Of a stretch of 64,000 nt of DNA, positions 1,610-64,000 are shown piece by piece. The notes under the pieces are model-generated. The model was given only the letters and a program-made list of their open reading frames with translations. It was not told where the DNA came from and ran no database searches. Origin of the DNA: Paragyromitra xinjiangensis (Eukaryota; Ascomycota; Pezizomycetes; Pezizales; Discinaceae); assembly GCA_038503065.1 (NCBI GenBank), contig JBCAMK010000014.1, positions 1,054,001 through 1,118,000 of the forward strand. Reading direction: 5' to 3'. How positions within the stretch are numbered: the first letter of the stretch is position 1; every line of letters begins with the position of its first letter. The position numbers and the translations under genes are program-made.

Positions 1610-1720
1610 TGGACCTCAATCTCTATGGACTTCATAGTGGGATTACCTGAATCCAATGGGAATACCAAGATCTGGGTCATAGTTGACTGGTTTTCCAAGA
1701 TGGCTCACTTCATTCCGCTA
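1610..1720 (+). pseudogene. gypsy integrase, segment 1 (first catalytic Asp)
   Basis: The translation runs [15 protein letters not shown] then [16 protein letters not shown]. This is the start of the Ty3/gypsy integrase core; the Asp of MDFIVGLP is the first catalytic residue. The segment ends at an acttcattccgcta target site where the ORF1-only element F1 entered, and the frame resumes at 3585. G1 cuts it off upstream. Confidence 0.88.
1707..1720 (+). repeat. 14-bp target site duplication of F1, left copy
   Basis: The sequence acttcattccgcta occurs here and again at 3571-3584, directly flanking F1. The last base (A) also supplies the A of the F1 ORF1 start codon. A 14-bp duplication fits target-primed insertion by an endonuclease-bearing LINE. 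Confidence 0.95.
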
Positions 1721-3270
1721 TGTCTTCCTCTTCGTCTAGAGGCAGAGGGAGAGGCAGAGGCTTCAGGTCTCCCTCTTCTGTGAATTCACCCCAAAACCCG
1801 CTCCAAACGCCGTTTGGCGCCCCTACAACACCCCCAAACACCCGATTTTCGCCTCTGCTCCATGGAGACCCAGAGCAGACACCTACACAAGCCCTGCCAC
1901 TTCGCCCAGCAGTTCCCCTACCTCACTATGCCTCCCTGCCCGCCACAGACCCCACTGGTACAGACAGTGGGTCGGTTCTCTTGGAAGAGTCTGACTCTGA
2001 CATGACAGACACTGAGGGACCCCTCACCTTTTCCACCACCCTACCTCCAGTCATCCAGATGGATGATTCTAACAGCAATTTGGATCGCCTTGGTGCCATT
2101 GGTACTGGGGAGAACTACAACCCCTCCCTCTTCGCAGTGATGGATGAGCAGAACAGGCTCATCAAAGCACTCACCAAACGCGTCAAGCAGCTTGAAAAAG
2201 CTATCAACACACCCCCACCAGCCCCTACCTTCCACAATGACCCAGCTCTAGTGGAAAAGGTGGCCACCCTCACCTCCAAGGTTGCAGACTTGGAACAGAA
2301 ACGGACCCTCACAACCATTCTGACCTCTGCCAACCTCCCCCTACCTCCAGCACCTGCTCCTCCGCCAGCTACCACCTCCTGGGCTCAGGTTGCCTCTAAA
2401 AAGGCTCCCAGACCCGCCAACAAGGCCTCCAAGCCTCCCAAACAACCCACAGCGCCTCCAAAATGCGACAGAACCCTCATCATCACCAGGAATGGTCTAC
2501 CCATTCCTGATGACATCACCCCACTCCTCATTCGCAATGCAGTCAATGCTGCCCTGGAAAGGCCTTTGATTGCAGAAGTGCGATTCACTCCTGCCCACCA
2601 TGTGCAGCTCATTGCTGTTACCTCCACTACCTCTGACTCCCTCCTCAAGCAAAGACAGAAGCTTGAGGAAGTTGTTCGCACCACCATTCCCAATGCCACC
2701 AGCATGGAAAAGGAAGCCATCCTTACCCAAGTTGTTGTGCACAATGTCCCCACCTCCATCCCCTCTGGCGAAGAGGGATTTCAACAGATCAGGTCTGAGG
2801 TTGAGCAGTTCAACCCAGGCACCACCCTACTTCGCGACCCTCGCTGGCTCACCAGACCTGAGCAGAGAGAGGGGAAACAGGCATCCTCCATGGTTCTTAC
2901 CATTGTGGGGAAGCAGCCTGCCACCACTGCCCTTGAGAGAGGGCTCTCCATGTTTGGACTTCGTCACAAAGTCACCAAATACCTTCGCTTTGGGCCAGAC
3001 ACTCAATGCACCACCTGCCTGGCCTTTGGCCACCCACAACAACGCTGTACCAGCAAAACCCCTTACTGCAACATCTGCGCTGGGCCACATACAGCATCCT
3101 CTCACTCCTGCGCAACCTCCTCTTGCACCATCAAGGGAGCTCCTTGCCTCCACACTACCATCCGTTGCAAGAACTGTAACGAACAGCATCGTGGTAACTT
3201 TTCTGGTTGCCTCACACTCACTCAAGCAAGACTTAGGGCCAGCGAACGTCAGGATCGCATGGCTGTTTAA
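1720..3270 (+). CDS. ORF1 protein (nucleic-acid-binding, zinc knuckle) of F1, 516 aa, intact
   Basis: The start is a true ATG whose A comes from the target site. The N-terminus is serine, arginine and glycine rich ([14 protein letters not shown]). A proline-rich linker and an acidic stretch (near residue 85-100) follow, then a predicted coiled coil around 140-195 ([17 protein letters not shown]). The central conserved region (about 250-420) may be an RRM-like fold; this is inference. The C-terminus carries the knuckle [14 protein letters not shown] (430-443), then [15 protein letters not shown] and [15 protein letters not shown]. Proteins of this type coat retrotransposon RNA and form the particle with ORF2p. 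No ORF2 follows. This is the most complete F-type ORF1 of the [20 protein letters not shown] subfamily here. Confidence 0.92.
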
Positions 3271-3570
3271 GTTTTTCCCTACCTGTTATGATTTAACCAG
3301 CCTTCAGGGGTCTTAGGATTCAGTGGAAGGAGGGCTATAGGCCCAAAACACGCGATGGTGAAGGAAAAAGGAACAGGTTGAGATCTTCGGGTAGTCACTT
3401 GTCTTTCCTTATCATATTAACTGACGATGAGCCTGAGAGAGGCTGAGATGGAACTGGTGGAGGGTTTAGTTAGTTTGTTTTGTTTTCTTTGCGTTCCTGT
3501 TGGGTTTTCTCTTATTGTACGCTATATCCGATTCGGATGCATGCGAGTATGAACAATAAATAAATAAATA
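1721..3570 (+). mobile_element. ORF1-only LINE, copy F1
   Basis: The insertion has exact 14-bp flanking duplications. It contains one ORF (ORF1), a 300-bp 3' UTR and a TAAA-repeat tail, and no ORF2. It is 5'-truncated exactly at the ORF1 start codon relative to F3 and F5, which carry roughly 440 bp of 5' UTR. The 3' UTR has the two stem-loops shared with LINE D (3332-3344 and 3526-3538). As 5' truncation cannot remove a downstream ORF, the lack of ORF2 must be a family trait. Confidence 0.92.
3271..3570 (+). promoter_or_regulatory. F1 3' UTR with two stem-loops and TAAA tail
   Basis: Stem-loop 1 is at 3332-3344 (GGGCTATAGGCCC). Stem-loop 2 is at 3526-3538 (ATCCG-ATT-CGGAT). The tail is AATAAATAAATAAATA. 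Both loops recur in the 3' UTR of LINE D and of every other F copy, with compensatory changes in stem 1. They are the best candidates for the RNA signal recognised by the reverse transcriptase. Confidence 0.75.
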
Positions 3571-3792
3571 ACTTCATTCCGCTACCTAGCGAGAATAAGA
3601 CTGAGGACATGGCAAAACTCTTCCTGAAAGAAATCTGGAAGCTTCATGGTCTCCCTGATGACATAGTCTCGGATAGGGATAGCAAATTCATCTCCCACTT
3701 TTGGCAGTCACTGATGGATCTCCTCAATGTGAAGTTGAACTTGTCTACCGCATTTCATCCACAAACCGATGGTCAAACCGAAAGGGTTAACC
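3571..3792 (+). pseudogene. gypsy integrase, segment 2 (second Asp and catalytic Glu)
   Basis: After the right copy of the F1 target duplication (3571-3584) the integrase frame continues as [20 protein letters not shown]. It then shows the second catalytic Asp in VSDRDSKF and the Glu in [13 protein letters not shown] solo LTR splits the next codon: base c3792 joins a4502-g4503 to restore Gln. Confidence 0.93.
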
Positions 3793-10676: not shown

Positions 10677-11957
10677 TTTAATTTTTGGTGGTGGGTTTTT
10701 TGGAGTGGTTTTCTAGATGTAGGGCTCTGGTCTTGGCTTTTTCTGGGCAGTCAATGGCTGTGTGTTGGTTGGTATCGCAGCATGCGCAGCGAAGGGGCAT
10801 GTGGGTGCATCTGGCTCCTCCTTTGCAGGTGGGGGTGGAGCACTTGTGGTCTTTGGTATGGTGGGATTGGGCACATATGGCACAAGCAGTGTCGTTTTTG
10901 CATGTTGCGTCATGGTGTCCGAGTTTTTGACAGTTGCGACATTGGGTGGTGGGATTGATGGGATGGTATTCTCGTGCTTTGCATGTGGTGTTGAAAAGGT
11001 TAAGGTATGTGAAACCGAGTGATTTGAGGGTGTGTTTGGCAGGTATGGCGATGACGATGGAGGAATGTTTTTTCCCTTTGCGACCTTCTTCGGTGCTGAG
11101 CCATCTGGGTGCCTGTGCGAGTTCGACTTCAGGGAGGGCTGCCTGGAGTGCGCTGGTGATGTCAGTAATCTGGGTTGGTTTGCTGTTAAAGTAGGTTGGG
11201 ACGCTGTCTAAGATGAATTTGGACCATCTGCTGTTGACCCTGGCGTTGGTGATGGGGATTTTGAGGAGTGTGCATGCGGAGGTAATTTCATGTTGGTATT
11301 GTGAAAGGAAGGTGTCTGCTGGTTCATTGGGGCGTGTGAGGAGCATTAAGTTGTCTCCATTTGTTTTCCTGACTGCAAGGATGCAGGTTTTTTGTGCTCC
11401 TAGCTTGTTGTTTATGGCGTCAAGGATTGCGTCAGGGGTGATGGTTGTTGAGAGAGGTTTGGTGAGTTCGAAGATGATTTCTCTTTTGTCCATGGTGTAG
11501 TCTGGCTTGTATAGGGGTTGGAGTGCTGGTTTTTTGCCCTTTTTGTTTTGGACTTGTTGGAATGAGGGTTTGCCTGGTGCTGGGGCAGTGATGTTAGCGT
11601 AGGAGGTTTGAGCTCCTTGTTTGGGTTTGGTTTGGTTGGTTAGGTTGGTGAATTGGGGGGCTTGAATGATGGGGATGGTGGGGGCAGTTGGAGTGGTTTT
11701 GGTTGTTTGTAGGCTGTGGAGTCTATTGTCCAGTGTACGGACGTCGTTTTGGAGCCTGATGTTTTGAGCCTTGATGTCGGCAAGTTTGGTGAGGGAAGAT
11801 TCGTTCTGTTTGTGGCTGAACTGAATTTGGGTTTTGAGACTGCTTCGCTGTTGTTGGAAGTCTAGCTTGAGGTCTGCAATTTGGCTTTGGATGAGCCAGG
11901 CGAGGTAGTTGGTGGCTTTGCCGTGGTTGAGGTTCTGGAGTTCCTCGGGCGCAAATT

Positions 11958-13222
11958 CGGACACTGAGGGACCCCTCACCTTCTCCACCACCCTACCTCC
12001 AGTCATCCAGATGGATGATTCTAACAGCAATTTGGATCGCCTTGGTGCCATTGGTACTGGGGAGAACTACAACCCCTCCCTCTTCGCAGTGATGGATGAG
12101 CAGAACAGGCTCATCAAAGCACTCACCAAACGCGTCAAACAGCTTGAAAAAGCTATCAACACACCCCCTCCAGCCCCTACCTTCCACAACGACCCAGCTC
12201 TAGTGGAAAAGGTGGCTACCCTCACCTCCAAGGTAGCAGACTTGGAACAGAAACGGACTCTCACAACCATTCTGACCTCTGCCAACCTCCCTCTACCTCC
12301 AGCAGCTGCTCCCCCGCCAGCCACCACCTCCTGGGCTCAGGTTGCCTCCAAAAAGGCTCCCAGACCCGCCAGCAAGGCCTCCAAGCCTACCAAACAACCT
12401 GCAAACCCCCCAAAACGCGACCGTACCCTCATCATCACCAGGAATGGTCTACCCATTCCTGATGACATCACCCCACTCCTCATTCGCAATGCAGTCAATG
12501 CTGCTCTGGAAAGGCCATTGATTGCAGAGGTGCGATTCACACCAGCTCACCATGTGCAGCTCATTGCTGTCACCTCCACCACCTCTGACTCCCTCCTTAA
12601 GCAAAGACAGAAGCTTGAGGAAGTGGTTCGCAACACCATCCCCAATGCCAACAGCATGGAAAAGGAAGCAGTCCTGACCCAGGTTGTTGTGCACAACATT
12701 CCCACCTCCATCCCCTCTGGCGAAGAGGGCTTCCAGCAAATCAGATTTGAGGTTGAGCAGTTTAACCCAGGCACCACCCTACTCCGCAACCCCCGTTGGC
12801 TCACTAGACCTGAGCAGAGAGAGGGGAAACAGGCATCCTCCATGGTTCTTACCATTGTGGGGAAGCAGCCTGCCACCACTGCCCTTGAGAGAGGGCTCTC
12901 CATGTTTGGACTTCGTCACAAAGTCACCAAATACCTTCGCTTTGGGCCAGACACCCAATGTACTACCTGCCTGGCCTTTGGCCACCCACAACAACGCTGT
13001 ACCAGCAAGACACCCTTCTGCAACATCTGTGCTGGGCCTCATACAGCATCCTCCCACTCCTGCGCAACCTCCTCTTGCACCATCAAGGGAGCTCCCTGCC
13101 TCCACACTATCATCCGTTGCAAGAACTGTAACGAACCGCATCGTGGTAACTTTTCTGGTTGCCTCAAACTCACCCAAGCCAAACTTAGTGCCAGCGAACG
13201 TCAGGATCGCATGGTAACTTAA
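11958..13222 (+). pseudogene. ORF1 of F6, lacking about the first 96 residues
   Basis: The frame corresponds to residues 97 onward of the F1 protein: coiled coil, core and C-terminal knuckles ([44 protein letters not shown]). The native start is missing. The frame happens to stay open leftward into antisense A1 sequence, which is chance and not a fusion gene. Confidence 0.9.
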
Positions 13223-13545
13223 GTTACACCCCACCCTTATTGATGTATCCAACCTTCAGGGGTCTTTGGACCTGGTGGAAGGAGTGCTATAGGCACAAAG
13301 CAAGCGATGGTAAAGGAAGAATGCCCAGGGTAGTCTTGACACTGTGAGAGGGAGTCACTAGATCGGGGTATTAACACATTCACTGATGACGAGCCTAGAA
13401 GAGGCTGAGTTGGAACTGGTGGAGGATTAGTTAGTTTTGTTTTGTTTTCTTTTATGTTCCTGTTGGGTTTTCTTCTGCTGTACGCCATATCCGTTTCGGA
13501 TGCATGCGAGTATGAACAATAAATAAATAATAAATAAATAAATAA
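11958..13545 (+). mobile_element. ORF1-only LINE, copy F6 (5'-truncated), in A1 ORF1
   Basis: It is flanked by a 13-bp duplication tcgggcgcaaatt (11945-11957 and 13546-13558). It starts within ORF1 at the codons for the acidic motif DTEGPL and keeps the complete 3' UTR, both stem-loops (13284-13296 and 13489-13501) and a TAAA tail. It is opposite in orientation to A1. By eye it is almost base-for-base identical to F3, including the 3' UTR, so both stem from a recent source. Confidence 0.93.
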
Positions 13546-14024
13546 TCGGGCGCAAATTGTGTGAAGTTCATGTTGGAGTTGTATTCTTGTCCTCCAATGT
13601 CTTCTTCGTCTTCGTCGGCTTCGCTAGAGGAGCTGCTGTGGTGGGAAGGGGGTTTATCTGTCATGGGGAGGTCTGCTGCGTCGAAAGCAGAGAGCGCAGT
13701 GGAGCCTTCAGCTTGTGACATGGGGATTGTTTTGCGTTGGATGGGAGGAGAAAGGTGAGAGGAGGTTCGTTTGCGGCCAGCAACCTTTGGTGGGGTTATT
13801 TGAACGCGGACAAAGTGCACTGGGGTTGTGATGGGTGAGGGGGATCTCCTGGGGGGAGTTTGGGGATCCAGAGTGATGGCTCCGATGCAGGAGGAGGTAA
13901 ATTTCCTGAAGCGGGTTAAAAGTGGTGAGAAAAGAAGCAGTAAAGTTAAAGACTTTTTGCTGTGTGTGACGCGGTTGCAACGCAGAATTTGGTGTTTTCG
14001 GCTATTTCAATCAGCGATGTCGGG

Positions 14025-51468: not shown

Positions 51469-52224
51469 AACCGACAACAACAACGCCAAAGTGACTTTTT
51501 GGTCACAACTCCACCAATACTACTCCGATTAACGAGATTTTTGATTATTCGGAATCAGCTCGCTGCCCTCGTTCGATCCTGCTATTGTACGTCGAGGTCG
51601 CTCTCGATTTGCAAAAGTTGTTGTCGAATTCGCTGTTTTACCCCTCTTTCCCCCCCAACAACAAAAACCTCACCAAACTTTGGCAATCTGCATTTTGTCA
51701 TAACTCCACCAGTTTTCGTCCGGTTAGCTCGACCCCGGGCTTTTTGGAACCGCCTCAGCGCGCCCGTTCGATCGCCCTCTCGTTCGTTCGGATCCGACCA
51801 GAACTGCAGAAGTTCTGCTCAATTTCCCATTTCCCTCCGCCAGGGACCCCCCCCAACACACCCCACCTCCTCCTGTCGGTTCAGGACCCTTCTCTATGTC
51901 TTCCTCTTCGTCTAGAGGCAGAGGGAGAGGCAGAGGCTTCAGGTCTCCCTCTTCTGTGACTAGTTCACCTCAAAACCCGCTCCAAACGCCCTTTGGCGCA
52001 CCTACAACCCCCCCAAACACCCGATTTTCACCTTTGCTCCATGGAGACCCAGAGCAAACACCTACCCAAGCCCTGCCACTTCGCCCAGCAGTCCCCCTAC
52101 CTCACTATGCCTCCCTGCCCGCCACAGAGCCCACAGAGAGTGGCTCTGTCCTCCTGGAAGAGTCTGACTCTGACATGACGGACACTGAAGGACCCCTCAC
52201 CTTCTCCACCACCCTACCTCCAGT
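51469..52224 (+). mobile_element. ORF1-only LINE, copy F2, 5' part
   Basis: It begins with the same 5' end as F3 and F5 (aaccgacaacaacaacgcc) and has the full 5' UTR. ORF1 starts at ATG 51896 and runs to the codons for TTLPPV. It is interrupted at 52224 by LINE D. The remainder would lie right of the window. Confidence 0.9.
51896..52224 (+). pseudogene. ORF1 of F2, N-terminal 109 codons only
   Basis: The N-terminus [20 protein letters not shown] and the acidic DTEGPLTFS region match F1 and F3. The frame then runs into the D tail and stops. The coiled coil, core and knuckles are missing. Confidence 0.9.
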
Positions 52225-52649
52225 TATTTATTTATTTATTGCTCATATTGCATAAATCCGTCTCGGATATGGCATACAGTGAAAGGAAACCCCATGACCG
52301 CACAATAACTAACAAAGGAAAATCCTCCGCGAACATGAACCAACTAATTAGTAGATATCCACATCAGATATCCCTTTGCGAAAAACAGAAGAAACATAAA
52401 TCAAAACAAAATAACAAAAGGAAAATAACAAAAGAGGAAATAACAATTTTTATCTCAAAGTTCTACCAAACAGTAGAAACGAACGGAATATCAATCGACA
52501 GGGTAAAATCATAGGGAAATACTCAAACAGTTTTTTATCATCAGAAATCCTCCACACGGTCATGTTCCATCTCACCCCACTTTCAGGGTATTCATCAGTT
52601 TTCTATCGTCCTTCACCATCACATGCTTTGGGCCTATAGCCCATTCTTA
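52225..52649 (-). promoter_or_regulatory. D 3' UTR with two stem-loops and TAAA tail
   Basis: On the plus strand stem-loop 1 reads gggcctatagccc (52630-52642), just beyond or touching the ORF2 stop region, and stem-loop 2 reads atccg-tct-cggat (52256-52268). The loop of SL2 differs from F (TTT, ATT) while the stem is identical. SL1 matches F1 exactly. The tail context TATGANCAATAAATAAATAA is shared with F. Confidence 0.75.
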
Positions 52650-54739
52650 CTAGCCGTTCTCTCTTTCTCCTTCGCTCTCTTCCTCTTCGTCGTTGTAGAG
52701 GTATATTCCTTGGTGGGAGTACCTGTTGTCTTCTTGTCGTTCCAGGGTCCAATTTCTGGTAGCGATTTGGGTTGGTGTGAGGAATGTTTCAATGGTGGCA
52801 GCGAGGCCAGCATTGGTATGCATCGCAGTTCTCCATGTGAGTGGCATTGGTTTAAGGGCTGCTTTGAGTGCTTTGCGATGGGTAGGAAGTGGTTCCTGGC
52901 CACACTCTAGCAGTAGGTGTTGTGGTGTTTGGTTATCAAAGCCACATTTGCATTTAGTGTCTTCAATGTTGTTGGTAGGGATTCTGGCGAGGTAGGATTT
53001 GGTGTATCCATGTCCGGTTCTCATTTGAGTGATGGTGGAGGCTGTTCTTCTGGGGATGTTTCCCCTCAGCGGGGCACTTGGTTTCAGTGCTGGTTGTCCG
53101 TAGTAGCTGCGGCCTTTTTTTGCCTGCTTCCATTTGGCTTTCCATATCGTCAGGGAGTGTTCCTTGATGTTTCTCTTGAGGTATGTGATGGAGGTGAGGA
53201 CATCTGATTCTATCCTTGTTCCTTGGGCTCCTATCTTGGCGAGCTTATCAGCTAGCTCGTTGCCGGCAACGTTGACATGTCCTGGTACCCAATAAACATG
53301 GGTTTTGATGCCATTGTCTTCGAGTTGAAGCAAGTTGTTGCGGGCTTCAATGACCAGGTGCTGGCCTGGCATAGGGAGGGGTGTTGTCATTCGTTGTACT
53401 GCTGCATGGTTGTCGCAGTAGATGTAGACATCATTTGTCAGGTGAGGTGATCGCTGTACTTGTAGGATTGCATGCTTAGTGGCTTTTGCAATACCATAAA
53501 GTTCTGCGTCAAAGACTTCATTTTCTTTGCCGAGGTGGTAGGATTTGTTGACCACAGAGTGACCTCTACGGAAACCAGCAACTCCAGCTCCTGTTTTGCC
53601 TTCCAGGAGGGAGCCATCAGTGTAGAAGACTAAGCGATCAGTCCTAGTACTGTCTCCAGCTGTGTGGTTCCGATGGTTTTCTGCTGCGGCGTCTTTGTCT
53701 GCAGGGTCAATATAGATGTCTATGGTGTTTTGGTGCCATGGTGGGCATGCCAGATTGTCTACACATTCAATCTCTGATTGTGGCTGGACCCATTTGTTGG
53801 TAGATGCCAGTATCCTATGTAGTCTTGTTTCGTATTTGGGAGGTGGTGGTTTGGTGCCATGGAGTGTTGTTGGAGCTATCTGGGTTGTTGTTTTCCTGGG
53901 TTGAAGGCCAGGAATCAGGGCAGAGGGAGGTGATGGGATGGGTGTTGGGTAGGGAAAGGACTCGGAGTGCATATTTCCTTTGCAACTCGTCCAATCTGAT
54001 TGGGGTAGGGAGGAGTCCTGTCTCTGCTTCCAGGGCATGGACAGGTGAAGTTCTGAAGGCTCCAGCAATCTTGCGCATTGCTTGATTCTGGACTTTCTGG
54101 ATGGTGTTGCTGAGTCCAATCTGCCCGTTCCACCATACTTCAGCTCCGAAGTCACTGATGGTGGCTACACAGGTTTGGTAGAGTTGGCGGAGTGCTTTGT
54201 AACTCAGTCCTTTTTCTGTGCTTGCGAGACGGGAGATAGCCATGAAGGCTCGAAGTGCGGAGGCAGCTTTGGTCTTCACATGATGCTTGAATGTGAGTTT
54301 ACGGTCAAACCAGACACCCAGCCATCGCTGGACATCTGCAGCCTCAATCACGTTGCCATCAGGCATTGTGACTTTGGCTTCATCAGAGGTGTCAGTTGTT
54401 CGTCGGGAGTGGAAGTGAGTGAGTTCTGTCTTTGGATTGTCAAAGTACAAGGCATTTTTCTCACCCCATTCAGAGGAGGTGAGTGCCATTGCTTCCAGTG
54501 TTCGAGAATTTTCTGCTTCAGACTTTCCTGTAACCAGAAGGCCCACGTCATCGACATAGCTGGGGCAGGTGGAATCAGGATATTTTTCTTCTAGCTCGTT
54601 GAACAACGGAGCCAGGTAGAGGAGGAAAAGGATAGGGGAGGTGGGGGATCCTTGTGGGATGCCAGTTTGAATGGGTGCCATGGCTTCAATTTCACCATCG
54701 AATGCCATGCAGGCTGTTCGATTGCTGAAACTGCACATA

Positions 54740-55186
54740 ACCGACAACAACAACGCCAAAGTGACTTTTTGGTCACAACTCCACCAATACTACTCCGATT
54801 AACGAGATTTTTGATTATTCGGAATCAGCTCGCTGCCCTCGTTCGATCCTGCTATTGTACGTCGAGGTCGCTCTCGATTTGCAAAAGTTGTTGTCGAATT
54901 CGCTGTTTTACCCCTCTTTTCCCCCCCAACAACAAAAACCTCACCAAACTTTGGCAATCTGCATTTTGCCATAACTCCACCAGTTTTCGTCCGATTAGCT
55001 CGACCCCGGGCTTTTTGGAACCGCCTCAGCGCGCCCGTTCGATCGCCCTTTCGTTCGTTCGGATCCGACCAGAACTGCAGAAGTTCTGATCGATTTCCCA
55101 CCCCCTCCGCCAGGGACCCCTCCAGGGCCCAGCAACCCCCCCCACAACACACTCCACCTCCTCCTGTCGGTTCAGGATCCTTCTCT
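54740..55186 (+). promoter_or_regulatory. F3 5' UTR
   Basis: The 5' UTR is shared with F2 (51469-51895) and F5 (60711-61151, minus). It begins ccgacaacaacaacgccaaa and includes caaaagttgttgtcgaattcg and a C-rich end before the ATG. As LINEs must carry their own promoter, an internal promoter is likely here; no specific box can be named. Confidence 0.55.
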
Positions 55187-56729
55187 ATGTCTTCCTCTTC
55201 GTCTAGAGGCAGAGGGAGAGGCAGAGGCTTCAGGTCTCCCTCTTCTGTGACCAGCTCACCTCAAAACCCGCTCCAAACGCCGTTTGGCGCCCCTACAACA
55301 CCCCCAAACACCCGTTTTTCGCCTCTGCTCCATGGAGACCCAGAGCAAACACCTACTCAAGCCCTGCCACTTCGCCCAGCAGTCCCCCTACCTCACTATG
55401 CCTCCCTGCCCGCCACAGAGCCCACAGAGAGTGGCTCTGTCCTCCTGGAAGAGTCTGACTCTGACATGACGGACACTGAGGGACCCCTCACCTTCTCCAC
55501 CACCCTACCTCCAGTCATCCAGATGGATGATTCTAACAGCAATTTGGATCGCCTTGGTGCCATTGGTACTGGGGAGAACTACAACCCCTCCCTCTTCGCA
55601 GTGATGGATGAGCAGAACAGGCTCATCAAAGCACTCACCAAACGCGTCAAACAGCTTGAAAAAGCTATCAACACACCCTCCAGCCCCTACCTTCCACACC
55701 GACCCAGCTCTAGTGGAAAAGGTGGCTACCCTCACCTCCAAGGTAGCAGACTTGGAACAGAAACGGACTCTCACAACCATTCTGACCTCTGCCAACCTCC
55801 CTCTACCTCCAGCAGCTGCTCCCGCCAGCCACCACCTCCTGGGCTCAGGTTGCCTCCAAAAAGGCTCCCAGACCCGCCAGCAAGGCCTCCAAGCCTACCA
55901 AACAACCTGCAAACCCCCAAAACGCGACCGTACCCTCATCATCACCAGGAATGGTCTACCCATTCCTGATGACATCACCCCACTCCTCATTCGCAATGCA
56001 GTCAATGCTGCTCTGGAAAGGCCATTGATTGCAGAGGTGCGATTCACACCAGCTCACCATGTGCAGCTCATTGCTGTCACCTCCACCACCTCTGACTCCC
56101 TCCTTAAGCAAAGACAGAAGCTTGAGGAAGTGGTTCGCAACACCATCCCCAATGCCAACAGCATGGAAAAGGAAGCAGTCCTGACCCAGGTTGTTGTGCA
56201 CAACATTCCCACCTCCATCCCCTCTGGCGAAGAGGGCTTCCAGCAAATCAGATTTGAGGTTGAGCAGTTTAACCCAGGCACCACCCTACTCCGCAACCCC
56301 CGTTGGCTCACTAGACCTGAGCAGAGAGAGGGGAAACAGGCATCCTCCATGGTTCTTACCATTGTGGGGAAGCAGCCTGCCACCACTGCCCTTGAGAGAG
56401 GGCTCTCCATGTTTGGACTTCGTCACAAAGTCACCAAATACCTTCGCTTTGGGCCAGACACCCAATGTACTACCTGCCTGGCCTTTGGCCACCCACAACA
56501 ACGCTGTACCAGCAAGACACCCTTCTGCAACATCTGTGCTGGGCCTCATACAGCATCCTCCCACTCCTGCGCAACCTCCTCTTGCACCATCAAGGGAGCT
56601 CCCTGCCTCCACACTATCATCCGTTGCAAGAACTGTAACGAACCGCATCGTGGTAACTTTTCTGGTTGCCTCAAACTCACCCAAGCCAAACTTAGTGCCA
56701 GCGAACGTCAGGATCGCATGGTAACTTAA
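55187..56729 (+). pseudogene. ORF1 of F3, three small indels in C runs
   Basis: The start [20 protein letters not shown] and the end are as in F1. Compared with the otherwise near-identical F6, it lacks two C near 55676, two near 55816 and one near 55914. The frame shifts at each, and the net change of five bases leaves the last part open to the normal stop at 56727-56729. All three lie in C homopolymers, so a sequencing or assembly error must be considered. C-terminal knuckles are intact. Confidence 0.88.
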
Positions 56730-58905
56730 GTTACACCCCACCCTTATTGATGTATCCAACCTTCAGGGGTCTTTGGACCTGGTGGAAGGAGTGCTATAGG
56801 CACAAAGCAAGCGATGGTAAAGGAAGAATGCCCAGGGTAGTCTTGACACTGTGAGAGGGAGTCACTAGATCGGGGTATTAACACATTCACTGATGACGAG
56901 CCTAGAAGAGGCTGAGTTGGAACTGGTGGAGGATTAGTTAGTTTTGTTTTGTTTTCTTTTATGTTCCTGTTGGGTTTTCTTCTGCTGTACGCCATATCCG
57001 TTTCGGATGCATGCGAGTATGAACAATAAATAAATAAATAAATAAATGTTCGATTGCTGAGGAAGGAGTCCACCCATCGGCAGATGGGAAGTGGGAGGTC
57101 CAGTTCTATCATGGTCTTGATCAGTCGTCGTTTGAATACAAAATCATATGCACCTTTCACGTCCATGCACAGTGCAGAGAGTGTTAGGCCTTTCTTTTTG
57201 GCTGCATCGGCAAGCGTGCTGATAAGCATGCAAGCATCCACAGCTGATCTTTTTGGTCGACCTCCAATTTGCCATCTATGGAGAAGGTGATATCTTTCTG
57301 CCATAAATGCTAATCGGGTTGCTATGATCTTTTCTGAGACTTTGCCTAGGCAGTTGAGGAGTGATACTGGTCGGTAGGCTTTTGCTATCGTGTAGTCTGG
57401 TTTATTGGCCTTTCTAATGATTGCAATTGTAGCTTCACGCCATATGGTTGGGTGGTATCCTGCTTTCATGGTGGCTTTGTAGAAGGAATTGAACTGCGTT
57501 GGGTCAACTTGGTATGCTTTTTGAATGCATAGGAAGCCAATTCCATCAGGTCCAGGGGCTTTCTTTGGTGCTGAGGTCATGATTGCTTTCCGAATCTCAT
57601 CGTTGGTGAGGTCTTTCCATGGGATCTTGTGTTTTCCTGCTGGAACAGGTTCATCAAGTTCCACTGAGGGAGGGGGAGGGAATAGAGTTGCTCGGAAGAG
57701 ATTGGCTTTCTCTTCAAAGGTTTTGGACTCTTGGAGGGTGGTGGGATTGTGTAGGGTGGGGGTGCGTTCACATCTGCGAGGCTTGGTGTACCTCATTGCT
57801 GTGAAGACATCTTTTCCGTGAGCTTCTTCTAGGAATGTATTCCAGTGTTCACTTTTTGCTGTTCTGATTCGTCTAAAGTAGGATGTTCGCAGGTTTTTGA
57901 ATCTTCGCCACATGGTTGGAGTCTGATCTGTTCTCCAGTCCCTGAGGGCTGTCTTCATATGTCTGCGTCCTTCTTTGATGTCTTCATTCCACCAAGGTTT
58001 GGCGAAGGGCGATGGTTTTCGTTTGGGTACATGGATGTTGGCAGCTGCTATGATTGAATCTCGTAGGTGTTGAGCTGCTTCGTCTAGGTTTGAATGGGTT
58101 GGATGGGAGTGTAGGAACTCCCAGATGTCTTTAGTAGTGATGGAGGAAAGGGTGAAAGTTTGTTGGAAGCCGTCCCAGTCCGCCTTGGCCCAATTAAATT
58201 GTTCCGTTGATGGTGGGGGGGCACATTCCAAAGAGTCGGAAGCAATTTCAAACTGGACAACTTCATGGTCGGATCCTGTTGCAAGGTCTTCCATGACTGC
58301 CCAGTTCATAATCAAGTCTGTCATCGGTGAGGAGGAGAAGGCAAGATCCAAAACGGATCTGCCAGTGCCTGTTGGGTAGTTGTAGGTATAAATGTCAGGC
58401 TCGTTAATGAGGGTGTAGTTGAATTCTTCTAGTATAGCTAGAAGAGCTTCATGTCGTTTTGGTGAACGGACTCGTGAGTCCCAGAGAGGATGGTGGGCAT
58501 TGAAGTCACCTGCCATGATACAGCGTTCTGGTAGCTTTAGTCCCACAAGTACACGTTCAACTGTGTATTGCGGGTGGCTGTCAGGAGATCGTTGTGATGC
58601 TGCAGGTTGTTCATTGTAGATGTTGAGGAGGGTAAAGGAAGGAATGGAGGGGGTTGACAGCTCTATGGCCTGTACATCTTCGTTATTGATGATGTCGGGC
58701 CTTGGCTGATATTTCAGGAAGAGGTTGGATTTTGATATAAAGGTCATGGTTCGAGGGCGGTTAATACAGCTTGGAATCATTCTTGCAAATGACCCATGTG
58801 ATATTGATGTCCAGGAGTTTGGTGGTGCGTCAGGGGAAGTATCGGGCATAACAAAGGGTTCTTGAATAATAACTATATCAGCCGTTTCTGAGGCTGAGTT
58901 GAGGA

Positions 58906-61151
58906 TTATTTATTTATTATTTATTTATTATTCATACTCGCATGCATCCGAAACGGATATGGCGTACAGCAGAAGAAAACCCTACAGGAACATAAAAGAA
59001 AACAAAACAAAACTAACTAATCCTCCACCAGTTCCAACTCAGCCTCTTCTAGGCTCGTCATCAATGAATGTGTTAATACCCCGATCTAGTGACTCCCTCT
59101 CACAGTGTCAAGACTACCCTGGGCATTCTTCTCTCACCATCACATATTGTGTGCCTATAGCACTCCCTCCACTAAGCCCAAAGGCCCATGAGGGCTGGAT
59201 AAATCAATACAGGTAGGGGGAAACTTTAAAGAACCATGCGATCCTGACGTTCGCTGGCCTTAAGTCTAGCTTCAGTGAGTTTGAGGCAACCAGAAAAGTT
59301 ACCACGATGCTGTTCATCACAGTTCTTGCAACGGATGATGGTGTGGAGGCAAGGAGCTCCCTTGATGGTGCAAGAGGAGGTTGCGCAGGAGTGGGAGGAT
59401 GCTGTATGAGGCCCAGCACAGATGTTGCAGAAAGGCGTTTTGCTGGTACAGCGTTGTTGTGGATGGCCAAAGGCCAGACAGGTAGTGCATTGGGTATCTG
59501 GTCCAAAGCGAAGGTATTTGGTGACTTTGTGGCGAAGTCCAAACATGGAGAGCCCTCTCTCAAGGGCAGTGGTGGCAGGTTGTTTCCCCACAATGGTTAA
59601 GACCATGGAGGAGGCCTGCTTTCCCTCTCTCTGCTCAGGCCTGGTGAGCCAGCGAGGGTCGCGGAGTAGGGTGGTGCCTGGGTTGAACTGCTCAACCTCA
59701 GACCTGATCTGCTGGAATCCCTCTTCGCCAGAGGGGATGGAGGTAGGGACATTGTGCACAACAACTTGGGTAAGGATGGCTTCCTTTTCCATGCTGGTGG
59801 CATTGGGGATGGTGGTGCGAACTACTTCTTCAAGCTTTTGTCTCTGCTTGAGGAGGGAGTCAGAGGTGGTGGAGGTGACAGCAATGAGCTGAACATGGTG
59901 AGCTGGTGTGAATCGCACCTCTGCAATCAATGGCTTGTCTAGGGCAGCATTGACTGCATTGCGAATGAGGAGTGGGGTGATGTCATCAGGAATGGGTAGA
60001 CCATTCCTGGTGATGATGAGGGTGCGGTCGCGTTTTGGGGGGTTTGCTGGTGGTTTGGTGGCTTTGGTGGCTTTGGGGGCGGGTTTGGAGGCCTTTTTGG
60101 AGTCAACCTGGGCCCAGGAGTTGTTGGCAGGTGCTGGGGCAGCTGCTGGAGGTAGGGGGAGGTTGGCAGTGGCCAGAATGCTGGTGAGGGCGCGTTTCTG
60201 TTCCAAGTCTGCTACCTTGGTGGTGAGGGTAGCTACTTTCTCCACAAGAGCAGGGTCGTTGTGGAATGTAGGAGGTGGTGGGGGAGCATTGGCAGCCTTT
60301 CTGAGCTGCTTGATCTCTCTATTCAATTGCTTGACGTAGAGGCGGTATTGGAATAGATCTTTGGCAAGCTGAATGACAGCATCTGCGATCTTGGAGGTGG
60401 TGTTGAGGAGTGGGGGGTTGAAGTCTTCCAGGGACTCGTGCTCAGACTCAGACTCACTCATCTCATGGTCCTGAGAGTCTGGGGGAGCAGGGAGAGACTC
60501 ATAGTCTTGTAGGGGCACTGCTGGGCGCAGTGGTAGGGCCTGTGTGGGTGTTTGTTCTGGGTCTCCATGGTGGGAGGCAGAAAATCGCGAATTGGGGGGT
60601 GTGGTGGGTGCAATGGGTGTTGTGGGGGTAGAAAAGGGCGAATTTGCGCCAGGAGAGGGAGACTGGAAGCCTCTGCCTCTCCCTCTGCCTCTAGACGAAG
60701 AGGAAGACATGGAGGAGGGTCCTGAACCGACAGGAGGTTGTGGGAGGGGTGGTGCTGGGCCCTGGAGGGGGTCCCTGGCGGAGGGGGGTGGGAAATCGAG
60801 CAGAACTTCTGCAGTTCTGGTCGGATCCGAACGAACGAGAGGGCGATCGAACGGGCGCGTTAAGGCGGTTCCAAAAAGCCCGGGGTCGAGCTAATCGGAC
60901 GAAAACTGGTGGAGTTATGACAAAATGCAGATTGCCAAAGTTTGGTGAGGTTTTTGTTGTTGGGGGGGAAAAGAGGGGTAAAACAGCGAATTCGACAACA
61001 ACTTTTGCAAATCGAGAGCGACCTCGACGTACAATAGCAGGATCGAACGAGGGCAGCGAGCTGATTCCGAATAATCAAAAATCTCGTTAATCGGAGTAGT
61101 ATTGGTGGAGTTGTGACCAAAAAGTCACTTTGGCGTTGTTGTTGTCGGTTT
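58906..61151 (-). mobile_element. ORF1-only LINE, copy F5 (full length, 2.25 kb)
   Basis: It is flanked by 14-bp duplications ggctgagttgagga (58892-58905 and 61152-61165) near the start of D ORF2. It has the 5' UTR, intact ORF1, 3' UTR with stem-loops (59151-59163 and 58946-58958) and a TAAA/TAA tail. It is a different subfamily from F1, F3 and F6 by its ORF1 N-terminus, with no room for ORF2. Confidence 0.95.
59226..60710 (-). CDS. ORF1 protein of F5, 494 aa, intact
   Basis: It starts with a true [23 protein letters not shown], then a Pro/Thr-rich region and an acidic segment (SESESEHESLEDF). The coiled coil region is YVKQLNREIKQLRKAANAP. The core and C-terminus are very close to F1 ([16 protein letters not shown]; knuckles [29 protein letters not shown] and [15 protein letters not shown]). 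The N-terminal half differs strongly from F1 between residues 20 and 130, while the C-terminal half is almost the same. The likely role is RNA binding, supplying the particle protein for a borrowed reverse transcriptase. Confidence 0.92.
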   Translation of the reverse strand: MSSSSSRGRGRGRGFQSPSPGANSPFSTPTTPIAPTTPPNSRFSASHHGDPEQTPTQALPLRPAVPLQDYESLPAPPDSQDHEMSESESEHESLEDFNPPLLNTTSKIADAVIQLAKDLFQYRLYVKQLNREIKQLRKAANAPPPPPTFHNDPALVEKVATLTTKVADLEQKRALTSILATANLPLPPAAAPAPANNSWAQVDSKKASKPAPKATKATKPPANPPKRDRTLIITRNGLPIPDDITPLLIRNAVNAALDKPLIAEVRFTPAHHVQLIAVTSTTSDSLLKQRQKLEEVVRTTIPNATSMEKEAILTQVVVHNVPTSIPSGEEGFQQIRSEVEQFNPGTTLLRDPRWLTRPEQREGKQASSMVLTIVGKQPATTALERGLSMFGLRHKVTKYLRFGPDTQCTTCLAFGHPQQRCTSKTPFCNICAGPHTASSHSCATSSCTIKGAPCLHTIIRCKNCDEQHRGNFSGCLKLTEARLKASERQDRMVL

Positions 61152-61240
61152 GGCTGAGTTGAGGAGGGATAACATAACATTTTGGTTTCTTTGGCAGTTG
61201 TGTTGCATCAGGCGGATCTTGTGTGGGTTTGGTTGCACAA

Positions 61241-62680
61241 TCATTGTTCCACCATGATGTCTTTTTCAGTTCGGGAGAGGTCTGGGCGTGCAACACAGGA
61301 TCTGTCAGTGGCTTTATGTGTGCCACCACAGTTGATGCATTTGGGAGGCATGTGGGCGCAGGAGTCAGTGGCTCTGCAAGTCCCACAGAAGTGCTTGTTG
61401 GTAGCATGGTCGTGTCCACAGTAGGCACAGGCTGGCTTGGTGGAGGGGCATCTCTGGAACTTGTGTCCAAACTTTTGACAGTTAGAACATTGGTCACCAG
61501 GGCGTGCAGTCAAGTAGGCTCCGGTCCTGTGTCTTTGGCCAAAGATGAGGATTCCGTTTTTGATCAGTTTGTTGTACATGCTTTTGCTGGTGATGGCAAT
61601 CATCACCGAGCTGTGGGACTTTCCATTTCTCTTGTCAGGGTGGGTCATGTAGCGAGGAGGTGCTGCCAGTTTGAGATCACTGTTTTGGTATTCCAGTTCA
61701 TTTTGCAGGTCGCTCATGCCAGTACGATTGTCGGGGTATTCCATGATTGGGACTCCGTGGATGGCAACCTTGTGCCAGGACTCCTGTTTGGAGAGAAAGA
61801 GAGCTTTCTCATCGCTTTCCTTCACAACTTTCTCAATGGTGGCCTTGTGCAGGTCAAAGTCAGTGCTGGTGAATCCATTGCGAGTGTAGAGCAGGAGATT
61901 TGCTTTCAGGTTCCAGGAGATTCCTGAGATCTGGAGGCTTTCTGGTGCTTTGGCAGTCAGGAGTTCTTTGTTGATGGTGTTGCGCAGGACAAGGAGATTG
62001 AGGCTTTCTTCTTTCTGATCACCACTGCGTTGGACAATCATGTTCTTGGTGAGTTCTGGGGTTGGGGTTGTGGGGGTGTCAGTGTTGGCCTTTGCAGGCT
62101 TTCCATCTTTCGCCACAGTGGCCCAAGTCTTTGGTGCAGGAGGTGGAGGAGGGGGAGGAGGTGCTGGCGCGATTTCAGTTGCCTTTCCTTTTCCCTTGTT
62201 CTTCTTGGGTTGTTGGGGAGCGGTGGGGATTGTTGTTGCTGTGATTGCTGGTACGACAGGAGTTGCTTTCAGGGTGCGGTGGATTGAATCCACTTTCCCG
62301 ATCACAGTGTGGCTCATGGAGCCCAGGGAGGTTGAGATTTGGGTGGTGAGGTTGCTAACCATCATCTTAAGCTCAGCGATTTCCTTGTTCAGGTGTTCAT
62401 TCTGTGCCATGAGGTGCTGGTTGACGTCGTTTTGACTCATTGGGAGTGCAAAGTAGCTGGGAGTGCGTTTGGGAGGGGGAGCAGATTGCTGTTGGTTGCC
62501 AAAGGTTCTCTTTGACGGGCCAGCTGCGGATCTGGTCCTGGTCATTGGTTCTGGCTCGTAGGTGAGGTCAATTCCTCCCAAAGTGTTTCTAAATGATAGA
62601 GGATGTGTGGGGGAGTTGCCAGCTGAGGAGAAGAATGGTGGTGGGAGTGTAATCTTGCGAGCAAATGGTGCCGGGAGAGG
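61241..62680 (-). pseudogene. ORF1 of D, N-terminus cut off by F4
   Basis: An in-frame ATG lies at 62545 (MTRTRSAAGPSKRTFGN), but the frame is open upstream to the F4 junction at 62680 (APFARKITLPPPFFSS), so the native start is probably further 5' and lost. The layout is a coiled coil (NEHLNKEIAELKMMVSNL), a Lys/Pro-rich linker, a core with HKVAIHGVP and the knuckles CSNCQKFGHKFQRC, CAYCGHDHATNKHFC and CINCGGTHKATDRSC. The core aligns with the F ORF1 (RYMTHPDKRNGKSHSSV against [17 protein letters not shown]). The stop TGA overlaps the ORF2 ATG. Confidence 0.87.
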
Positions 62681-64000
62681 TTATTTATTTTTATTTATAT
62701 TTCATACTGCATGAATCCGAAACGGATATGGCATACATATAGAGAAAACCAAACAGAAAACAAAAACAAAACGCAACTAACTACCCGATTCCTCCCACTG
62801 GGTCCAACTCAGCCCTCTATGGCTATTCTTCAGTTAATGTATTAATACCCCGATCTAGTGTCCTCTCTCACAGGACAAGACTACCCTGGGCATTCTTCTT
62901 TCACCAGCACATGCTTTGTGCCTATAGCACGTCCCTCCAACAATCCGAGCACTGTCAAGGGAGATGAAGTCGTAAGGGTGGGGGGGAGACTTAGATTTGC
63001 ATGCGATTCTGTTGTTCGCTTGCAGCTAGTCTTGCTGCTGTGAGTTTGAGGCACTCGGGGGAGTTACCACGATGTTGTTCGCCACAGTTGGCGCAGCGGA
63101 GGATGGTGTGAAGGCAGGGAGATCCTTTGACATGGCAGGAAGGTTTGCCGCAGGTGTGTGTTGACACTGTATGAGGCCCAGCACAGATGGTACAGATAGG
63201 GGTCTTGCTGGTACAGCGCTGTTGGTGGTGGCCAAAGGCCAGGCAGTGGGTGCATTGGGTGTCCTGTCCAAAGCGAAGGTATTTGGAGACCTTGAGGCGG
63301 CGTCCGAAAAGGGAGAGCCCTCTCTCAAGGGCAGTGGTGGCAGGTTGTTTCCCCTGGATGGTAAGAACCATAGAAGAAGCCTGCTTGCCCTCTCTCTGCT
63401 CTGGTCTGGTGAGCCAGCGAGGGTCACGCATGAGGGTGGTGCCAGGGTTGAACTGTTCAACCTCTGACCTGATGTGTTGAAATCCTTCTTCGCCAGAAGG
63501 AATGGAGGTGGGTACGTTATGCAAAACAACCTGAAAAAGAGTGACTTCTTTCTCCAGGCTGTTGGCATTGGGGATGGTGGATCTCACAATCTCTTCAAGC
63601 TTTGATCTCTGCTTGAGGAGTGTGTCGGAGGTGGTGGTGGTGACAGCAATGAGCTGCACATGATGGGCAGGTGTAAATCGCACCTCTGCAATCAATGGGC
63701 TTTCTAGGGCTGCATTGACTGCATTGCGAATGGTGAGTGGGGTGACATCCTCAGGAAGGGGTAGACCATTCCTGGTGATAATGAGTGTGCGGTCACGTTT
63801 GGGGGGGCTGATGGGTGTTTTGGGGGCCTTGGAGGCCTTGGGGGCGGGTCTGGAAGCCTTTTTGGAGGCAACCTGGGCCCAGGAGTGTGGTGCAGGCGCT
63901 GGGGCAGCTGCTGGAGGTAGGGGGAGTGAGGCAGGACCAGAGGCAGAGGCAGAGGCCAAGATGGTAGTGAGGGCGCGTTTCTGCTCCAGATCTGCTACTT
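62681..64000 (-). mobile_element. ORF1-only LINE, copy F4 (5' part outside window)
   Basis: The tail (AATAAAAATAAATAA on its strand) starts at 62681 in D ORF1. Stem-loop 2 (62715-62727) and stem-loop 1 (62918-62930) follow, then the ORF1 C-terminus. It represents a third F subfamily, more diverged. The target duplication cannot be verified. Confidence 0.88.
62991..64000 (-). CDS. ORF1 protein of F4, C-terminal part
   Basis: The frame is open from the window edge ([16 protein letters not shown]) to the stop at 62991. It has the Pro/Ala linker, the core ([19 protein letters not shown] and [16 protein letters not shown]) and the knuckles CTHCLAFGHHQQRC, CTICAGPHTVSTHTC and CANCGEQHRGNSPEC. No defect is seen in the visible part. 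Confidence 0.9.
   Translation of the reverse strand, partial: VADLEQKRALTTILASASASGPASLPLPPAAAPAPAPHSWAQVASKKASRPAPKASKAPKTPISPPKRDRTLIITRNGLPLPEDVTPLTIRNAVNAALESPLIAEVRFTPAHHVQLIAVTTTTSDTLLKQRSKLEEIVRSTIPNANSLEKEVTLFQVVLHNVPTSIPSGEEGFQHIRSEVEQFNPGTTLMRDPRWLTRPEQREGKQASSMVLTIQGKQPATTALERGLSLFGRRLKVSKYLRFGQDTQCTHCLAFGHHQQRCTSKTPICTICAGPHTVSTHTCGKPSCHVKGSPCLHTILRCANCGEQHRGNSPECLKLTAARLAASEQQNRMQI

Follow-up and report, generated by a model that had tools for sequence, protein, structure and literature searches.

An ORF1-only LINE family in Paragyromitra xinjiangensis and a candidate helper LINE with a similar 3' end

How does a retrotransposon that lacks the second of the two usual LINE reading frames keep inserting itself into a genome? 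The question is raised by a 64-kb stretch of the Paragyromitra xinjiangensis genome (contig C14, positions 1054001-1118000, hereafter the window; the genome, G000, comprises 48.2 Mb in 22 contigs), across which nested long interspersed nuclear elements (LINEs) are abundant. One of the families found there, F, has open reading frame 1 (ORF1) and goes from it straight to a 3' untranslated region (3'UTR) and a TAAA tail. Our analysis suggests, with a probability of roughly 0.77, that F is a nonautonomous retrotransposon without long terminal repeats (non-LTR) that codes for the ORF1 protein (ORF1p) only, and that the ORF2 protein (ORF2p) of another LINE in the window, D, would act on it in trans. 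A BLASTN map placed six F stretches in the window:

1718-3571, plus strand: F1; starts at the ORF1 start codon, with an open 516-aa ORF1 at 1720-3270 and a 13-bp duplication, ACTTCATTCCGCT
11958-13546, plus strand: 5'-truncated F copy; the C-terminal ~420 ORF1 codons, 3'UTR and tail, with a 13-bp duplication, TCGGGCGCAAATT
51469-52224, plus strand: 5' part of an F element; 94.7% identical to F5 over its first 776 nt, with the tail of D coming next
54739-57047, plus strand: F5; both ends present (5'UTR, ORF1, 3'UTR, TAAA tail), inside D ORF2, with a 14-bp duplication, TGTTCGATTGCTGA
61150-58906, minus strand: F6; both ends present, an open 494-aa ORF1 at 60710-59226, 82% ORF1 subfamily, with a 14-bp duplication, TCCTCAACTCAGCC
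64000-62681, minus strand: F7; a member of the 74% subfamily within the 5' portion of D, with its own 5' end beyond the window (BLASTN)

A complete F element reads 5'UTR, ORF1, a 3'UTR of ~300 nt and a TAAA tail, and the order from ORF1 (or its remnant) to the tail was seen in all five window copies with a visible 3' end. The copy at 51469 is interrupted by the 3' end of D, its own 3' end lying outside the view, and the ORF1 match of F7 runs on to G000:C14:1118490. F6 separates D ORF1 from D ORF2. The original prediction had named F1 and F5 as bearers of intact ORF1 frames; this held for F1, and it failed for the 54739 copy, in which ORF1 is divided between two frames, if that copy is the F5 that was meant (coordinates had been given for F1 only). 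The copy at 11958 lies inside the ORF1 of a family A LINE, as seen at 11940-11975 and 13541-13560, and the frame listed as A ORF1 (12051-10678) therefore begins within its antisense F sequence. The start codon of F1 stands directly after the 13-bp duplication, in surroundings that by eye resemble an LTR-retrotransposon integrase.

F shows the hallmarks of target-primed insertion, namely target duplications and a 3' tail. As had been claimed from the window alone, all four two-ended copies carry clean duplications (13 bp at 1718, 13 bp at 11958, 14 bp in F5 and 14 bp in F6), so that ORF2 was not lost from them by truncation. Genome-wide, 33 F copies were examined and a 5' end was recognised in 26, of which 16 have a duplication of 12-15 bp, nine of these being 14 bp. 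The three D duplications that were determined are 14, 14 and 14 bp long, and additional nucleotides between the duplication and the 5' end are frequent in F and D alike; since only these two families were compared, the likeness in length is weak evidence when taken alone. By-eye inspection of F and D insertion sites revealed no evident site motif. The D copies L033, L034 and L047 are continuous across the target site of F5, and L033 is also continuous across that of F6, with one base differing. Because of the target duplications and the uninterrupted D at two F sites, we regard the F copies as true insertions and not as truncations.

The absence of ORF2 extends well beyond the window. A genome search with the ORF1 of F1 returned 85 matches (the best 83 of 586 first-look candidates being scored), and the 30 best protein matches were taken with 1.5 kb of flank for the study of structure and of the ratio of nonsynonymous to synonymous divergence (dN/dS). 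In 30 of 30 loci ORF1 is followed by the ~300-nt 3'UTR, the TAAA tail and then other sequence, which in L023 is another F. Among four more divergent copies, two run through the tail into flank, one runs to the tail and one to the first shared 3' island described below, where the fetched piece ends. We also asked how often an F-type ORF1 (111 match rows, some of them parts of a single copy) has a D ORF2 on the same strand within 2.5 kb downstream; this occurred in 4 of the 111 rows, one of which, with D ORF2 at 383 nt, is F6, and an F 3' end intervenes in all four. Neither the 30 loci nor the neighbour test contained an F element with its own ORF2, and the prediction that F goes straight from ORF1 to its tail, which such a copy was to refute, is thereby confirmed. 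The search with D ORF2 listed 76 matches (the best 73 of 385 candidates being scored), none of which has an intermediate identity of 30-65% to D ORF2.

ORF1 itself is well preserved. No stop codon interrupts 73 of the 85 scored matches, or 58 of the 68 that are near full length. At a threshold of 0.01 the protein matched no Pfam family, and a profile search against solved structures gave just two weak matches, to unrelated proteins (E 0.0084 and 0.048). A motif scan, for which we used zinc-knuckle spacings from general knowledge, found three zinc-knuckle-like motifs in 33 of 35 F ORF1s and likewise three in D ORF1, so that F ORF1p would be a gag-like protein with three such motifs. Compared by the Nei-Gojobori method, four close copies gave dN/dS values of 0.07-0.17, and the median over 432 of the 435 pairs from the 30 loci (those with dS >0.01) was 0.12, a figure pushed down by the choice of the top protein matches. 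Between subfamilies the ratio was 0.15-0.34 at dS 0.22-0.78, based on five divergent sequences. In seven pairs it was 0.05-0.22 for the C-terminal half and 0.17-0.50 for the N-terminal half. F ORF1 is under purifying selection, as had been suspected from the intact frames, with dN/dS well below 1, unlike the neutral ratio that was to refute the idea, even if the sampling of top matches flatters the value. The subfamilies are mosaics: at the nucleotide level F6 (59226-60710) is 91-97% identical to F1 in the C-terminal blocks and 57-78% in the N-terminal ones, and L064 is 94-99% identical to L061 C-terminally and 67-88% N-terminally (L001 was also part of the mosaic comparison), pointing to exchange between F lineages, by template switching or by recombination.

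With ORF1p alone encoded by F, the enzymes would have to come from elsewhere, and D is the candidate. D occupies the 51469-64000 section on the minus strand, with F5, F6 and F7 inserted into it and D itself inserted into the F copy at 51469-52224. Its parts are as follows:

62581-61241, minus strand: D ORF1, 446 aa read, with three zinc-knuckle-like motifs
58849-57048, minus strand: D ORF2, endonuclease and first part of the reverse transcriptase (RT); PF14529 1.7e-16, PF03372 1.2e-10, PF00078 3.9e-11
54739-52650, minus strand: D ORF2, remaining RT and RNase H, here in two overlapping frames; PF00078 1.2e-12, PF00075 4.2e-10
52649-52225, minus strand: D 3'UTR and TAAA tail, by sequence comparison
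52640-52609, minus strand: first shared island (island 1) in D, part of the GGGCTATAGGCCC stem-loop with the following bases
56793-56824, plus strand: island 1 in F5, in the GTGCTATAGGCAC form
56972-57047, plus strand: second shared island (island 2) in F5, the ATCCGnnnCGGAT hairpin, the next bases and the TAAA tail as in D; 81% over 69 nt

D has the make-up of an autonomous LINE, with ORF1 and an ORF2 in which Pfam recognises endonuclease, RT and RNase H. The window copy is broken by the F insertions and by the division of its RT and RNase H part between two overlapping frames; six listed D copies have an ORF2 frame of 1341 codons that is stop-free in the matched part. Upstream of ORF2, D ORF1 was matched in 28 of 30 loci, 22 of which have the complete ORF1 (L046 falls short by three residues), the two loci lacking a match being L031, which is the window D with F6 intervening, and L042. 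F ORF1 was found beside or within D in L031, L040 and L043; in these loci the duplication check covered F5 and F6. The most similar copies are 99.7-99.8% identical within F and within D alike, and both families appear to have been recently active in the same chromosomal compartment.

The two families are also connected through the 3' end. The prediction that the F 3'UTR shares two stem-loop regions and the tail with D is upheld by BLASTN and by shuffling, as far as the sequence islands are concerned. The terminal 52-71 nt of the D 3'UTR matches F copies of all types at 79-87%. Island 1, a 34-nt match following the stop codon, is 91-94% identical to D in F1-type copies and weaker elsewhere, being visible by alignment in the F5 and F7 types and reduced to 28 nt at 86% in F6. 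In a comparison of F 3'UTRs with that of D, for which 200 dinucleotide shuffles served as background, z was 11.8 for F1, 8.2 for F5 and 11.4 for F7, whereas the control pairs (F1, F5 and F7 with A1, A2, B1 and C3) gave 0.7-5.3. The island-1 stem reads GG..CC in D and in F1-type copies, while all other copies have GU..AC, a difference that may reflect one evolutionary event; the stem is paired in 42 of 42 occurrences in the sequences examined, some of them counted twice in overlapping loci.

A genome-wide pattern search found island 1 at 222 sites (0 for the reversed control) and the terminal hairpin of island 2 at 218 sites (1 for the control). To type these ends by spacing, we paired 100 listed islands of the 222 with 100 listed hairpins of the 218. 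This classified 68 of the 100 islands, 45 as short or F-type (174-236 nt to the hairpin) and 23 as long or D-type (364-371 nt). For 30 of the 45 short ends, and for none of the 23 long ones, a scored F ORF1 terminates no more than 250 nt upstream; a D ORF2 is present up to 12 kb upstream for 17 of the 23 long ends and for three of the 45 short ones, the three being at 2.7-5.3 kb. No short end among the 45 stands at the 3.88 kb from ORF2 that is usual for D. Of the 32 untyped ends, 15 follow an F ORF1 and six a D ORF2.

Helper use of D had been offered as inference in the original prediction and it stays one, now with support from the shared 3' islands, the duplications, the compartment and the recent activity. 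Several observations weigh against our reading of F as an ORF1-only family served by D. The duplication scan drew a blank in 10 of the 26 F copies with a recognised 5' end, although one of these, L013, has 14 bp in another scan and would be a 17th copy with a duplication. Folds of single island sequences were not significant (z -0.9 to -2.0), and no scored ORF was in reach of 12 of the 45 short, 6 of the 23 long and 11 of the 32 untyped ends. F might be moved by a different ORF2, from an A, B or C LINE or from a helper that is extinct or lies beyond the scored sets, which we consider unlikely while taking it more seriously than the other alternatives. Family A also has a TAAA-type tail, the ORF2s of A and B are numerous, mostly open (32 of the 38 listed matches are stop-free) and located in the same regions or neighbouring ones, F5 and the A2 3' end score 31 against a shuffle maximum of 27 (one of the 12 control pairs), and the slices of B and C that entered the shuffle test may miss the true 3' ends. 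The D 3'UTR, however, matched D and F ends only and no other LINE family in the whole window at 1e-5, D exceeded all shuffles with each of the three F types tested, and the 68 typed ends contain no third spacing class.

The low dN/dS could also be a product of the choice of best matches (the 30 loci ranked highest among 85) and of exchange between copies, to which the mosaic subfamilies bear witness, F being then a passive RNA parasite of D akin to a long short interspersed nuclear element (SINE). We think this improbable, since the F1 group has kept open frames, with length differences in whole codons, relative to divergent copies at dS 0.40-0.78, all three zinc-knuckle-like motifs recur in 33 of 35 ORF1s, and the F-like proteins of Maublancomyces gigas are still 53-55% (three of four) or 39% (one) identical. 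There is less still to recommend a mutual partnership, of the sort proposed for HeT-A and TART, in which F would supply ORF1p to D in return: both ORF1 clades have M. gigas relatives, implying a long co-existence, and the two families share a compartment and recent activity, yet the whole-length D ORF1 ahead of ORF2 in 22 of 30 loci leaves D without obvious need of F. We hold it to be scarcely credible that the F copies of today are two-ORF LINEs shortened by truncation or internal deletion. The alignable 5'UTRs of F and D make it probable that F came from a two-ORF element, but duplications at both ends, uniform junctions of ORF1 and 3'UTR in 30 of 30 loci and the same structure in several diverged subfamilies contradict truncation for the present copies and leave it fitting only an ancient origin. 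Truncated D as the source of the F copies was likewise rejected on the duplications, the uniform junctions and the uninterrupted D copies.

Where, then, does F come from? F and D ORF1s are overall ~28-30% identical (F1 with D 28%, 132 bits; F1 with A1 31%, 106 bits), and F ORF1 is kin to the ORF1s of D, A, B and C and to M. gigas proteins, the nearest named relatives of both F and D ORF1 being from that species. In a tree of 29 ORF1 sequences, in which long branches meet and the root serves for drawing only, F groups with four M. gigas proteins at 100/99 and D with five others at 100/100; the A1 row opens with ~31 codons of antisense F. P0002-P0005, which are ~42-44% identical to F ORF1, join F at 94/94, below the program's star, and D ORF1 has an 86% identical counterpart in P0130, so that other sequenced material contains relatives of both families; a search of viral contigs with P0003 gave a single 40% match over 39 residues. 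The 5'UTRs of D and F are alignable (152.5 against 89 +/- 10 for shuffles, maximum 117.5, z 6.3). A recent origin of F by deletion from present-day D we reject, given the ORF1 identity and the separate clades. Because its ORF1 forms a separate clade with Maublancomyces relatives of its own, F has the look of a sister lineage that parted from D long ago and lost ORF2, and it is not simply half of D. The simplest account would be that both descend from one two-ORF LINE and parted before the split of the host from Maublancomyces, with F losing ORF2 at some point. It is less likely than not that F has been ORF1-only since before the host and M. gigas split, as a self-sustaining gag-only lineage that tracked D through its 3' RNA signals while ORF1 diverged to ~30% identity; if true, F would be among the oldest known helper-dependent LINE lineages.

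The preferred reading, of F as ORF1-only with D as candidate helper, can be put as a sequence of steps. Judging from selection and from the known behaviour of ORF1p, F RNA would be translated to ORF1p, which would package that RNA in cis; the shared 3' end would be recognised by D ORF2p (endonuclease, RT and RNase H), which would then nick the target and prime reverse transcription of F RNA. The ORF2 lost at the origin would have been that of an old relative of D and not of present-day D.

Elements of this kind are already known. Mammalian HAL1 (half-L1) codes for ORF1p only and, according to two studies, kept its coding capacity in guinea pig for ~29-44 Myr, which was read as cis ORF1p with trans ORF2p (PMC3627910, PMC5753468). 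The parallel that had been drawn with HAL1 stands for the ORF1-only coding; it does not extend to descent, as HAL1s derived from L1 several times independently, whereas F does not derive from its probable helper, its ORF1 is not nested in the D clade, and its kin are those named above, with three zinc-knuckle-like motifs. Mammalian L1 ORF1p is not known to have zinc-knuckle-like motifs. F also differs in its fungal host, its RNase H-bearing candidate helper and the specific shared 3' islands. The best functional precedent we found is TRE5-A.2 of Dictyostelium discoideum, which, according to PMC5391098, has no ORF2, keeps ORF1 and is apparently mobilised in trans by the TRE5-A.1 ORF2 protein. 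TRE5-A.2 is a derivative of its helper and is targeted near tRNA genes; for F no target motif was apparent by eye and, with ORF1 at ~28-30% and UTRs alignable only in parts, F does not derive directly from D. HeT-A joins the ends of chromosomes and is not known to make target duplications. F, unlike HeT-A, inserts far from contig ends and makes target-site duplications within repeat clusters. PMC4467039 describes HeT-A, at Drosophila telomeres with TART, as a pol-less element whose enzyme was proposed to come from a separate partner. The shared 3' end of F and D also recalls SINE/LINE pairs, although SINEs are short and noncoding and F codes for a protein under selection. In pairs with stringent 3' recognition a common 3'-terminal sequence is taken as the RT recognition signal (PMC3747384). 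A literature search, which covered few subscription papers, found no earlier report of a fungal ORF1-only LINE; what is new is the fungal host and the long divergence from the probable helper.

ORF1-only LINEs are rare, three cases having come up in the literature, and where the HAL1 and TRE5-A.2 parasites derive from their helper and HeT-A is a telomere specialist, F is dispersed, has numerous open ORF1 frames and several diverged subfamilies, and is accompanied by a candidate helper bearing the same 3' islands. With this system one can ask what makes a LINE RNA retain an ORF1p of its own if ORF2p can be had from another element, and to which 3' RNA features the RT of a LINE with RNase H responds. 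The GG..CC and GU..AC stems of island 1 and the short and long spacings provide natural variants.

The listed F, D and A/B matches are concentrated in one stretch of ~65-190 kb on each contig that has matches, the pattern expected of centromeres made of nested LINEs, and these stretches are candidate centromeres. Outside them lie four ORF2-like matches with 29-30% identity to D ORF2 (C4:1423431, C16:1475895, C18:1213181 and C13:1545860), which by their sequence belong to a different LINE family.

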